Shown here one piece after another: positions 7,555-61,757 of a stretch of DNA of 64,000 bases. The notes below the pieces were generated by a model. It worked only from the letters and a program-made list of their open reading frames with translations. It ran no database searches and was not told where the DNA came from. The stretch comes from Leptotrichia massiliensis (GTDB lineage: Bacteria; Fusobacteriota; Fusobacteriia; Fusobacteriales; Leptotrichiaceae). The stretch's first letter is position 1; each line of letters begins with the position of its first letter. The stretch is from the NCBI RefSeq assembly GCF_900104625.1, contig NZ_FNVZ01000005.1, positions 558,001-622,000 of the forward strand. Direction: 5' to 3'. Made by a program: the position numbers and the translations under genes.

Positions 7555-8469
7555 ATGAGTTTGGATAATTTTTCTGAGAAAAAAAGTACAGGTAGAACGC
7601 TTTTAATAATAGTAATTATAATAATAGTCTTATTTGCCTTTAAAAATAGAATTACAAGTTCGTTTACATTTCTTGATGGAATAACACAGGCAGTTAATTT
7701 TAGGCTAGTAAAAGTAAAAAGTATGCTTTATACTCAAGTTTTGAAATTGAAGTCCAGAGTTAATGACATCAGTTATATTGAAGATTATGTTGAAAATAAT
7801 AAAACTAGGGATTTTGAATTGCAAAAAAATAAGGTTCAGAATATGGAACTTGCATATCTAAAACAAGAAAATGAAAAATTACGTCAAATGCTGGAAATGA
7901 GACAAAAAAATCCTGCTGAATTTATAGCTGCAGATGTGGCACTTGTAGAAAATGGAAATTCATCAGAAAAAATGTATATAAATAAAGGTACTTCACAAGG
8001 CATAAAAGTCAATTTGCCAGTAATGTATGATGGTTATCTTATTGGTAAAATTTCAAAAGTCAGTGAAGAATACTCAGAAGTTACTTTGTTGACAAGTAAA
8101 TCTTCAAAATTAAGTGTAGTATTAAATGGTAATACTCAGCAAATTTTGCGTGGAAATGGAAATGGAACTTTTTCAGTACAAAACTTTAATGAAGGAAGTG
8201 TAACTAAAGATACAATTTTTAATATAGAAACTTCTGGTGTGAGTGATGTATTACCAAAAGGAATAAGAATTGGTACATTTAAAGTGACAGAGATAAATGC
8301 TTTTAATAAAATGAAAGAAATTAGATTTAAACCTAGCTTTAATATATTTGATATTCAAAGTGTGTTAGTTTACAAATGGAGCGTAAACGATGCTATTAAT
8401 ACACAAATACAAAATAAGGTAAAAGCAGAAGCAGAACAAGAAAATAAAGAAAATTCACAATCAAATTAA
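7555..8469 (+). CDS. mreC: Rod shape-determining protein MreC
   Basis: Inner-membrane scaffold that links MreB-directed wall synthesis to periplasmic enzymes and keeps cells rod-shaped. The 304 residues show a short cytoplasmic start, one membrane span (about 17-31), a periplasmic coiled coil (about 60-118) and the paired beta-barrel domain with the MreC signatures INKGTSQGIKVNLPVMYDG and GKISKV. The Asn/Gln-rich C-terminal tail is non-conserved. It heads a run of closely spaced plus-strand genes. Neither mreB nor mreD is adjacent. Confidence 0.93.
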   Translation: MSLDNFSEKKSTGRTLLIIVIIIIVLFAFKNRITSSFTFLDGITQAVNFRLVKVKSMLYTQVLKLKSRVNDISYIEDYVENNKTRDFELQKNKVQNMELAYLKQENEKLRQMLEMRQKNPAEFIAADVALVENGNSSEKMYINKGTSQGIKVNLPVMYDGYLIGKISKVSEEYSEVTLLTSKSSKLSVVLNGNTQQILRGNGNGTFSVQNFNEGSVTKDTIFNIETSGVSDVLPKGIRIGTFKVTEINAFNKMKEIRFKPSFNIFDIQSVLVYKWSVNDAINTQIQNKVKAEAEQENKENSQSN

Positions 8470-57926: not shown

Positions 57927-58080
57927 TAGTATAGTTGAAAATGGATAAGTTTTAATTTAAACCATATTTAAGTAAAGGATACAAGATAGAACTATTTTTA
58001 TAAAAATTTATGTAAATATATTTTTAAAAATAGATTGAAAAAGAAATTGTGGCAAAAAGTTATTTTAGATAGGAGGATAT

Positions 58081-60069
58081 ATGGGGATTTTTGATTTTTT
58101 TAAATCTTCTGATAAGAGGAGAAATAAAAATAATGAAATAAATGAAAATAATATAAATACTAATGTTAATCAACCCAACCGTCAAATTAGAAGAGAAATT
58201 TACGATATTGTAAATAATGAATCAGAAGTTATGGAAAATAATAATTATTCAGATGATTTTAAGGAAATTTCTTATTACGATGAATTTGGAAAAGAATTTA
58301 AAATGCCTAAAAAGGACTGGCTTAATAAGAAATTATATCCAGCTGTAAGAAAAAACTGGAGTAATATGGACGGATTATATCCTATAATACAGGATGCTTT
58401 TTCAAAAGAAGTTTATCCTGAAATAAAAGAAGCTGTGTTAAGATTTTATGCGGCTGATGAAGATTTTGAAAGAAAACTAATTTTGCTTGGAACTTATCAT
58501 GTGAGAACGGGAGCTTATCAAAATGCTGTTGAGCTTTATGAAAAAAATCTAAATATTAATAATATGACGGAAGGACTTTGTATAGCTTATGCTGAAGCAT
58601 TGGAACTTTGTGGACGTGCTGCAGATTCTGAAAAAAAATATTATGAAGCATTAGAAATAAATCCAAATTCTGCAACAGCATTTAAAAAATATTTTGATAT
58701 TGTGAAAAAAAGAAGCAGTAGCGAATATGAAAATAAAATGGAAAAATTGTCTGCAATAAGAGGAAACTGGCGAGCAAAAATGATGCAAGCGGTTGTTTAT
58801 TTCAAAAAAGGCGATAAGGAAACTGGAAATTATTTTTTGATAACGGCTTTGAAAGAGTCTGGATATAATTCAGAAGTAATGTATATTACATCAAGTATTT
58901 ATATTTTGAACGAGCTTTATGATGAATTTAAGCAATATGTATTGGCATATTATAATCCTGAAAATCATAATGCCCACACTGCTTTAAATGTACTAAAATA
59001 TTATAAAGTAAAAGATATGTATAAAGAAGGACTAGAACTTTGTAAATTTACTTCAAAATTCCCTTGGATAGAGCATTACAAAAAATTTATGTACTACGAG
59101 GATTATTTTTGGAAGTTAAAAGTGAAGGCAGAAAATAAAGATAAACAAGAGAAAACAGCAAATCGATTTTTTTCAACAAATAAACCTCTTTGGTATTATG
59201 AATTTAACCATCCTGAATTTATGTTGAACCAAAATAGACGTGTAAAACCAAATATTCTTATTTTGACATTTACATCAATTGGAGAAAAATCAGAATTGGC
59301 TGAAAATCTTGCAATTTCTCTGCCTTTATATTTAAATGAAAATTTACATTATAAGACAAACTTAAATTATCAGTTGGCAATTGCCTATAATAATGAAAAT
59401 CTTTTTGTATCTAAAAAACGTTACAGTACAGATTATATGAAACTAATAAGACAACAGAACAATAATTTAAATTTTGTATTGGCTGGGAATATTTTAAAAA
59501 TGCCGAATGTTGAAAAATATGAAATTGAAATTTATTTATACGATACTTTTAATGAACAAAAGTCAAGTTTGATTAATAAAATTTATGATGAAAATACGAT
59601 TTATAATGTTCAAAATGATTTATTAAAATCAGTAAGCAGTTTTTTTGAAAGAGATTTTGCGATAAAATATGAAAAAAATATGAATAACCTAGTTTTATTT
59701 TCACCAAAAATGAAATTTTTGATTCAAAGCAAAGTTCATAAGGAGCATCAATCGTGGCGATACAAAAAATTACTTTCTGATCAGATTGATGTGGTGCTTG
59801 AAGATAGAAATAATGACTTGAAGAAAATCAACTTGTTAGAACTTTTGTATGAAATAAAACAAACAAACAGTCAATTATTAAAATTTCAAAAACCAATTAT
59901 TTATAGTATGAATATTCACGGAATATTTGAAACACAGACATTAAAAATACTTGCACCAATCATATTTAAAATATATGATGATGATGTTAATTTTCAAGCA
60001 AATATAGAAGCATTGAATATTACAGACTCAAATTATTTGAGCTGGATAAATAAATTTTCGGGAGAATAA
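58081..60069 (+). CDS. Large unrecognised protein with TPR-like repeats
   Basis: A 662-residue soluble protein that I do not recognise. The N-terminus (GIFDFFKSSDKRRNKNNE) is amphipathic and basic, followed by an Asn-rich linker (about 18-50). From about 130 to 330 helical repeats read like TPRs (GTYHVRTGAYQNAVELYEKNL, CGRAADSEKKYYEALEINPNSATAFKKY, AVVYFKKGDKETGNYFLITAL). The C-terminal half (about 370-662) has mixed alpha/beta composition and no motif I can name. GGAGG precedes ATG. A membrane protein gene begins two bases after its stop, so the two very likely work together. Confidence 0.8.
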   Translation: MGIFDFFKSSDKRRNKNNEINENNINTNVNQPNRQIRREIYDIVNNESEVMENNNYSDDFKEISYYDEFGKEFKMPKKDWLNKKLYPAVRKNWSNMDGLYPIIQDAFSKEVYPEIKEAVLRFYAADEDFERKLILLGTYHVRTGAYQNAVELYEKNLNINNMTEGLCIAYAEALELCGRAADSEKKYYEALEINPNSATAFKKYFDIVKKRSSSEYENKMEKLSAIRGNWRAKMMQAVVYFKKGDKETGNYFLITALKESGYNSEVMYITSSIYILNELYDEFKQYVLAYYNPENHNAHTALNVLKYYKVKDMYKEGLELCKFTSKFPWIEHYKKFMYYEDYFWKLKVKAENKDKQEKTANRFFSTNKPLWYYEFNHPEFMLNQNRRVKPNILILTFTSIGEKSELAENLAISLPLYLNENLHYKTNLNYQLAIAYNNENLFVSKKRYSTDYMKLIRQQNNNLNFVLAGNILKMPNVEKYEIEIYLYDTFNEQKSSLINKIYDENTIYNVQNDLLKSVSSFFERDFAIKYEKNMNNLVLFSPKMKFLIQSKVHKEHQSWRYKKLLSDQIDVVLEDRNNDLKKINLLELLYEIKQTNSQLLKFQKPIIYSMNIHGIFETQTLKILAPIIFKIYDDDVNFQANIEALNITDSNYLSWINKFSGE

Positions 60070-60071
60070 CT

Positions 60072-60728
60072 ATGTTTTTTTATTATAAAAAAATATTGGC
60101 AATAATAGTATCATTCTTTTACATTTTTGTAAATTACAATTTCTATAATTCTATTTATCATGAATATACAAATGCCAAAATTTTTAATATAACATTATGG
60201 CTTGGAATTGTAGAAGTATTTTTCTGGATTATGTTGCTTTATTCGGTTTTTTATCTAGAAAACAAGAGTATTAGTAATGATTCAAATGGCAAAACTCCAG
60301 AAACTATTAAATTAGAAGAAAAAAAAGATATACGGGATTTATTAATCTGTTTTGCATTATTTTTAATAAGTTTAGTTTGTGTAAATATTTCACGTGTTAT
60401 CTTACAAAGTTCTCCATATATGAATGATGTTGTTTCAACAGTGAATTCGTATGTTTTATTTTTTGGTGGAACAAGAGTTTTATTTATTTTTTCAGCAATA
60501 GTATTTGGTTTTATTGCATGGAGCAGAAGAAATATATTTTTACTTATCATATCATTATTAAATGGAGCAGTTTCAGTAATGATCTGGTTAGACTTTGATG
60601 GAAATATTACAGCTATTATAAGAATTATTATTGCTATTTTGGCAATCGGTTATTATATTCTTTTAAAGAACATTATAAAATACAGTTTTAAACAAACTGA
60701 TAATCCACAACTTGAAAATGTTAAATAA
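60072..60728 (+). CDS. Multi-pass membrane protein of unknown function
   Basis: A 218-residue protein with about six membrane spans (about 5-25, 35-60, 90-112, 128-150, 155-172, 178-198) and a charged cytoplasmic loop (about 68-86, SNDSNGKTPETIKLEEKKD). No family recognised. Its Shine-Dalgarno site (GGGAG) lies in the last codons of the TPR-like gene, which implies coupled translation. The amidase gene follows 35 bases later. Confidence 0.78.
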   Translation: MFFYYKKILAIIVSFFYIFVNYNFYNSIYHEYTNAKIFNITLWLGIVEVFFWIMLLYSVFYLENKSISNDSNGKTPETIKLEEKKDIRDLLICFALFLISLVCVNISRVILQSSPYMNDVVSTVNSYVLFFGGTRVLFIFSAIVFGFIAWSRRNIFLLIISLLNGAVSVMIWLDFDGNITAIIRIIIAILAIGYYILLKNIIKYSFKQTDNPQLENVK

Positions 60729-60763
60729 TTTAATGAAATAGAATATAAGGAGGACTAAGTATA

Positions 60764-61729
60764 ATGAAAAAAAATATAACAAAATTATTATTACTAACGT
60801 CAATTTTGTCAATTGGAAGTATTATGAATGCTCATAATAAAGATGTTTCGAATGATGTAAAAAAACCGCCAATAAATATACGTATTGATGAAAATGGACA
60901 AGTAATGAAAGATCAGACAGGTAATAATAACAGTAGTAGAAATAATAACAATCAGTCTGGAAGAGGTGGCACACAAACAATTAAAAATTCAGCAGGTTCA
61001 ATAACAGTTGATTCTTCTTACACTTCAACAGGACAAAATTATAGACAAAGATTTATAATTTTACATTATACAGCGATGAACAGAGAAGGGTCACTTAAAG
61101 CATTGACAACCAACGAAGTGAGTGCTCATTATTTAATATCAGATCAAAAAAATGATCCAGTATACTATTTAGTGGATGAAAATAAAAGAGCATGGCATGC
61201 TGGAGCAAGTGAGTGGAAAACCAGTAAAAATCTAAATGATAGTTCAATTGGAATTGAAATTGTTAATAATGGAAATGTAAGTGGAAATTTCGAGCCATTT
61301 AGAGATTTTCAAATTAAGGAAGTTGCTGTTCTTGTAAAATATTTAGCGGATAAATATGAAATTCCTGCAACGAATATTTTGGGACATTCAGATATTGCTC
61401 CTCAAAGAAAGCCTGATCCAGGTCCATTATTTCCATGGGAAGAATTGTATAGAAAACATAACATAGGAATGTGGTATGATAATGATAAAAAATCATTTTA
61501 CGAAACTGAATATTCAAGTACTTGGAATACATTACCAGCTGCCACTGTACAAGCAGAATTTAATAAATTTGGATATACAATTAGTACAACAGGAAAATGG
61601 GACGAGCAAACTAAAAATGTAATAAAAGTATTCCAATATCATTTTAGACCGTCTAAGTATGATGGAAAACTTGATTTGGAAACTTATGCGATCTTAAAAG
61701 CATTAAATGATAAATATAATAGTAAATAA
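60764..61729 (+). CDS. Secreted N-acetylmuramoyl-L-alanine amidase (AmiD/Amidase_2 type)
   Basis: Cleaves the amide bond between muramic acid and the peptide in peptidoglycan or its fragments. The 321 residues have a signal peptide (about 1-23), an Asn/Ser/Gly-rich linker (about 50-70), and an Amidase_2 domain (about 90-235) with the zinc ligands His101 (LHYTA), His208 (LGHSD) and Asp218 (KPDPG) and catalytic Glu165 (IGIEIVN). A C-terminal peptidoglycan-binding domain follows (about 255-318, VQAEFNKFGYTISTTGKWDEQT, quoted in part). AAGGAGG precedes ATG. Probably co-transcribed with the two genes before it. Confidence 0.93.
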   Translation: MKKNITKLLLLTSILSIGSIMNAHNKDVSNDVKKPPINIRIDENGQVMKDQTGNNNSSRNNNNQSGRGGTQTIKNSAGSITVDSSYTSTGQNYRQRFIILHYTAMNREGSLKALTTNEVSAHYLISDQKNDPVYYLVDENKRAWHAGASEWKTSKNLNDSSIGIEIVNNGNVSGNFEPFRDFQIKEVAVLVKYLADKYEIPATNILGHSDIAPQRKPDPGPLFPWEELYRKHNIGMWYDNDKKSFYETEYSSTWNTLPAATVQAEFNKFGYTISTTGKWDEQTKNVIKVFQYHFRPSKYDGKLDLETYAILKALNDKYNSK

Positions 61730-61735
61730 TTAATC

Positions 61736-61757
61736 AAGGGGTAATTTAGCCCTTTTT
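61736..61757 (+). terminator. Intrinsic terminator after the amidase gene
   Basis: AAGGG (61736-61740) pairs with CCCTT (61750-61754), loop of nine, then TTT. Short but GC-rich for this genome. Confidence 0.65.

Follow-up and report, generated by a model that had tools for sequence, protein, structure and literature searches.

TolB combines its N-terminal domain (PF04052, TolB_N) with a propeller and carries a periplasmic signal peptide. The effector domain of CadC, a protein which also possesses a winged-helix DNA-binding domain and a transmembrane (TM) helix, belongs with PelC, FlgT, GNA1162 and HpaA to the same structural surroundings. MamA and LapB are membrane-attached cytoplasmic TPR scaffolds, the latter with a TM helix and a rubredoxin part. 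The secreted enzymes AmpDh2, AmpDh3 and AmiD combine an Amidase_2 with a peptidoglycan (PG)-binding domain, and AmiD is an outer-membrane lipoprotein. These are the known systems closest to a unit of three genes in the Leptotrichia massiliensis DNA analysed here (the whole stretch of 64,000 nucleotides, in the following called the window), which encode a TPR protein, a small membrane protein and an amidase.

The three open reading frames, their spacing and their ribosome binding sites were located exactly as an earlier note on this DNA had given them (Table 1). Only two bases separate the stop codon of the TPR gene from the ATG of the membrane-protein gene, whose Shine-Dalgarno site lies within the first gene, and the amidase gene starts 35 bases after the membrane-protein stop codon behind a site of its own. 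The terminator which the note had placed at the end of the group is present as a hairpin with a following T run, but it is weak (z -1.3) and was not listed by the consensus terminator scan, so that an intrinsic terminator at this site is plausible rather than strong. The nearest named matches were L. sp. oral taxon 879 and L. hongkongensis (87-88%). Purifying selection acts on all three genes, and the reading frames are not chance ones: compared with three Leptotrichia relatives, the TPR gene had a dN/dS of 0.02-0.08, the membrane-protein gene one of 0.21-0.35 (0.21-0.41 over all comparisons) and the amidase gene one of 0.08-0.20. Nowhere in the operon is the constraint stronger than on residues 388-662 of the TPR protein, for which the value was 0.01-0.035.

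Table 1. Features of the three-gene unit (positions are those of the window).
Feature	Position	Strand	Basis
Shine-Dalgarno site AGGAGG of the TPR gene	58071..58076	+	sequence
TPR gene, 662 aa	58081..60069	+	ORF call
TPR region, residues 127-260	58459..58860	+	Pfam TPR; AF2; VIA-align
Predicted TolB_N/CadC/PelC-like alpha/beta domain, residues 390-524, low-confidence model	59248..59652	+	AF2, Foldseek, VIA-align, weak TolB_N HMM
Predicted helical tail, residues 542-661	59704..60063	+	AF2
Shine-Dalgarno site GGGAGA of the membrane-protein gene, within the TPR gene	60060..60065	+	sequence
Membrane-protein gene, 218 aa	60072..60728	+	ORF call
Polytopic membrane protein, 6 predicted TM segments, conserved motifs SSPYxND and WLDFD	60072..60728	+	comparison, profiles
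Shine-Dalgarno site AAGGAGG of the amidase gene	60747..60753	+	sequence
Amidase gene, 321 aa	60764..61729	+	ORF call, domains
Terminator-like hairpin, then T run	61736..61755	+	-7.9 kcal/mol, z -1.3

A TPR superhelix at about residues 127-260 of the first protein is firmly established. Pfam TPR models match most members of the family, with an E-value of 1e-3 in the window protein and down to 1e-9 in homologues, the AF2 model reaches a pLDDT of 70-91 over residues about 130-245, and VIA-align yielded Z-scores of 12-13 against TPR proteins. The repeats noticed earlier are therefore real, but they are placed in the N-terminal half and not in the middle of the protein. The superhelix and a probable membrane association are shared with MamA and LapB, whose models match the protein weakly, driven by the TPRs and far below the family cut-offs; unlike LapB it lacks a TM helix and a rubredoxin part, and it differs from both in its additional TolB_N-like domain. 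No signal peptide, TM segment or lipobox was detected in any of the 29 homologues of the TPR protein. Their N-terminus is short, aromatic and amphipathic-looking (MGIFDFF or MFWxxF) with lysines next to it, which would suit a contact with the membrane surface. The assembly of L. hongkongensis JMUB5056 shows an interrupted TPR reading frame close to the start of the gene (locus L075, about 7900-8040), which might reflect either misassembly or a shortening of the gene.

For the C-terminal half, in which the earlier note had recognised no motif, structure prediction gives a domain at residues 390-524 that resembles the TolB_N/CadC type. The full-length and the C-terminal AF2 models agree on the succession beta-alpha-beta-alpha-beta-beta-beta-alpha, which matches the element order of TolB_N, the CadC effector domain, PelC, FlgT, GNA1162 and HpaA. 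The last part of the helical tail behind this domain is absent from the homologues of reduced genomes. As the AF2 input consisted of three sequences (a contig scan with a narrower alignment, giving two loci), both models are of low confidence, with a mean pLDDT of 38 and 44 and values of about 50-62 within residues 390-524. Foldseek placed CadC, TolB and PelC on top for the C-terminal model, the CadC periplasmic domain being first; its hits for the full-length model included TolB, CadC and GNA1162. In VIA-align, where a Z-score below 8 is not decisive alone, the top 13 rows for residues 390-524 were mostly TolB (Z 5.0-5.6 over 94-102 residues), followed at lower rank by FlgT, PelC, HpaA and CadC.

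At sequence level, Pfam gave TolB_N as the sole match when the domain of the window protein was taken by itself, in the same register (12.5 bits, E 0.17) and short of the Pfam cut-off of 22.4 bits; the best match among the homologues was E 0.0044, in one of them. In three Leptotrichia genomes the C-terminal domain of the TPR protein was the sole TolB_N match reported genome-wide. Profile-profile comparison with TolB, CadC and CsgG-like proteins ranked the CsgG-like ones first, yet within the control range, and we therefore claim no homology to TolB, CadC or CsgG from sequence. A search of PDB sequences with the profile of the C-terminal domain gave nothing credible, the best match (E 0.03) being off the expected fold register. 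The domain thus has the backing of both AF2 models, of Foldseek and VIA-align and of the sole Pfam match, which suggests that residues 390-524 are TolB_N-like by fold but not a proven member of the TolB_N family. Unlike in TolB, it is fused behind TPRs, no Pfam propeller repeat was found and the model shows a helical tail instead; a hydrophobic N-terminus is likewise missing in the 29 homologues. Since no signal peptide was seen, a fold that is normally periplasmic is probably cytosolic here. Within the phylum, the TolB_N model matched best to lipoproteins of the CsgG-like type, about 305 aa long, which some Fusobacteriaceae encode (loci L128-L135).

Homologues of the TPR protein were found in 29 of the 33 Leptotrichiaceae genomes searched and in all 28 with a completeness of at least 90%, including reduced genomes of 1.2-1.8 Mb. 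Of the four genomes that lack it, two (86% and 88% complete) have a contig end at the expected site. The family profile found no member in 63 other Fusobacteriales genomes; matches outside the Leptotrichiaceae were confined to the TPRs and were dismissed as generic. A role in defence or as part of a mobile element was dropped as well, because no relatives of the TPR protein were found in the phage and plasmid records and viral contigs searched and PADLOC gave no match.

A homologue of the membrane protein was encoded downstream of the TPR gene in each of the 29 genomes, directly adjacent in 26 and with one gene in between in the other three. The distance between the two genes, where measured, ranged from -56 to +30 bases, overlaps being frequent. 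The membrane-protein homologues of the reduced genomes, most of them with a Y-x-(S/N)-D motif, are beyond the reach of BLAST, but hhalign connected them with a probability of 93-95% (E 1e-7 to 1e-8), compared to at most 2.3% for unrelated membrane families used as controls. Judged by hhalign values of 93-99% over the whole set, the 218-aa membrane proteins form one family across the Leptotrichiaceae. Because the two genes are adjacent in 26 of 29 genomes although the TPR proteins share as little as 20-25% identity, it is very probable that their products are partners, as had been proposed. The pair is a stable unit found throughout the Leptotrichiaceae and nowhere else in the order searched. 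It had no match to described families in the libraries searched, and no description of it was found in the open-access literature searched. In three genomes of the Sebaldella type a divergent gene separates the TPR and the membrane-protein gene (L065:8915-9376, L067:12157-12618); it encodes 153 aa that by eye look like the pyridoxamine-phosphate-oxidase type.

The explanation we favour, with a probability of about 0.5, is a cytoplasmic TPR adaptor docked on a coupled membrane partner with an envelope-related role, accompanied by a dispensable passenger amidase. The adaptor would consist of the amphipathic-looking N-terminus, the TPR superhelix, the TolB_N-like domain and the helical tail. It would dock on the polytopic inner-membrane partner, presumably produced by translational coupling from the gene that follows, and its TPR and TolB_N-like domains may recruit client proteins to this membrane site. 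The pair might thereby act as a scaffold or regulator of envelope maintenance specific to the Leptotrichiaceae. Gene coupling and conservation, restriction to the family, strong purifying selection and the types of domains are the observations behind this explanation, from which we infer the physical complex, the membrane docking, the cytosolic location and the envelope role. Several points count against it, namely the weak AF2 models, the profile-profile scores within the controls and the intervening gene of the Sebaldella-type genomes. In addition, the membrane protein evolves fast, which one would not usually expect of the close partner of a protein under such strong constraint. The earlier note had thought of envelope remodelling or export; we retain an envelope role but find no support for export, as nothing in the unit resembles a translocase and a Sec-type signal sequence is part of the amidase itself, so that its export probably does not need the pair.

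That the third gene encodes a secreted muramoyl amidase, as noted before, is certain for the domain: besides Amidase_2 (PF01510, 1.5e-31) it contains PG_binding_1 (PF01471, 9e-10), and the PDB matches were AmpDh2 (5e-52), AmiD (1e-46) and also AmpDh3. The residues H101, E165, H208, K216 and D218 are retained, of which, from established knowledge on AmpD and AmiD, we take H101, H208 and D218 to be the zinc ligands and E165 and K216 to be catalytic. With its domain composition, active-site residues and predicted secretion in common with AmpDh2, AmpDh3 and AmiD, it is an ordinary N-acetylmuramoyl-L-alanine amidase of the AmpDh2/AmiD type. In contrast to AmiD its signal sequence contains no cysteine and no lipobox, and unlike all three it sits behind the TPR-membrane pair.

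All three products might form one envelope-remodelling machine in Leptotrichia, in which the pair controls the amidase from inside. The order of the pair is kept in all 29 genomes, but the amidase gene is contiguous in only 16, lies elsewhere in four and is absent from nine. When the TPR family is arranged in a maximum-likelihood tree, contiguity is confined to one clade with two later separations, and the amidase-less genomes are all on one side of a branch; the linkage dates to the ancestor of the Leptotrichia/Sebaldella-type clade. Such an ancestral linkage, its persistence across deep divergence and the overlap between the genes for membrane protein and amidase, seen in genomes of the Sebaldella type and in others, speak for a single machine. 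Nevertheless, the absence of the amidase from nine genomes keeping the pair and its relocation in four indicate that the pair does not require it as a third component, and the Fusobacteriaceae homologue, a stand-alone lipoprotein gene with a lipobox, works alone. We consider a single machine unlikely and prefer the passenger role, in which the co-transcribed Sec-secreted zinc amidase would trim periplasmic peptidoglycan independently of the pair. In one of the separations (G022, L061:1999-9144) the membrane-protein gene is immediately followed, in the same orientation, by a gene for a 2381-aa autotransporter (PF03797, 6e-26); the amidase gene of this genome is 22 kb off, also on the same strand.

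Conversely, the TPR protein might act alone, its neighbours being housekeeping genes that are merely transcribed together with it and functionally unconnected. In the reduced genomes the pair lies between mnmA and alr/rsmB within a mixed housekeeping operon (mnmA, alr, rsmB, rimM, trmD), and for this reason operon membership alone says little. On the other hand, all 29 genomes retain the order of the TPR gene and the membrane-protein gene, although every other neighbour changes, and we do not think it likely that the TPR protein acts alone.

The wider neighbourhood contains a further family. In most relatives the TPR gene is closely preceded by one or several copies, up to five or six in tandem, of a gene for an uncharacterised family of polytopic membrane proteins of about 300 aa (L054:10175-14701, L055:13135-18814, L122:6124-8023). 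No Pfam match was found for this family, and a tested representative gave none in NCBIfam. In the genome of the window three copies are located on the other strand at a distance of 365 kb (G000:C5:981860-984527), where they still adjoin genes that flank the cluster in relatives. This displacement points to a rearrangement break between 57813 and 58081, and the three-gene unit of the window is accordingly in part a product of rearrangement. It is conceivable, though quite doubtful, that the cytosolic TPR protein with a relocated TolB-type domain, its membrane partner and the expanded upstream family make up an inner-membrane machine of the Leptotrichiaceae which would organise the assembly of the cell wall and of surface proteins, with the amidase and autotransporters as clients.

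A sensor or regulator similar to the CadC effector, reading a small molecule and signalling via the membrane protein, would fit the first rank of the CadC periplasmic domain in Foldseek, the likewise combined alpha/beta and helical parts and the extreme constraint on the C-terminal domain. We judge it very unlikely, because the TPR protein has no DNA-binding or output domain (no Pfam winged-helix match) and no TM segment, VIA-align favours TolB over CadC, and the sequence similarity to CadC is not significant. A periplasmic TPR protein, using an unrecognised translocation route, would agree with the periplasmic or outer-membrane location of nearly all structure-matched bacterial proteins of the TolB_N fold, but the absence of any export or membrane signal from the 29 homologues makes this highly improbable.

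The pair of the proposed adaptor and its membrane partner, which survives genome reduction, is a direct candidate for what sets the envelope or the lifestyle of the Leptotrichiaceae apart. A TolB-type domain in the cytosol would, if confirmed, broaden the known uses of this fold.
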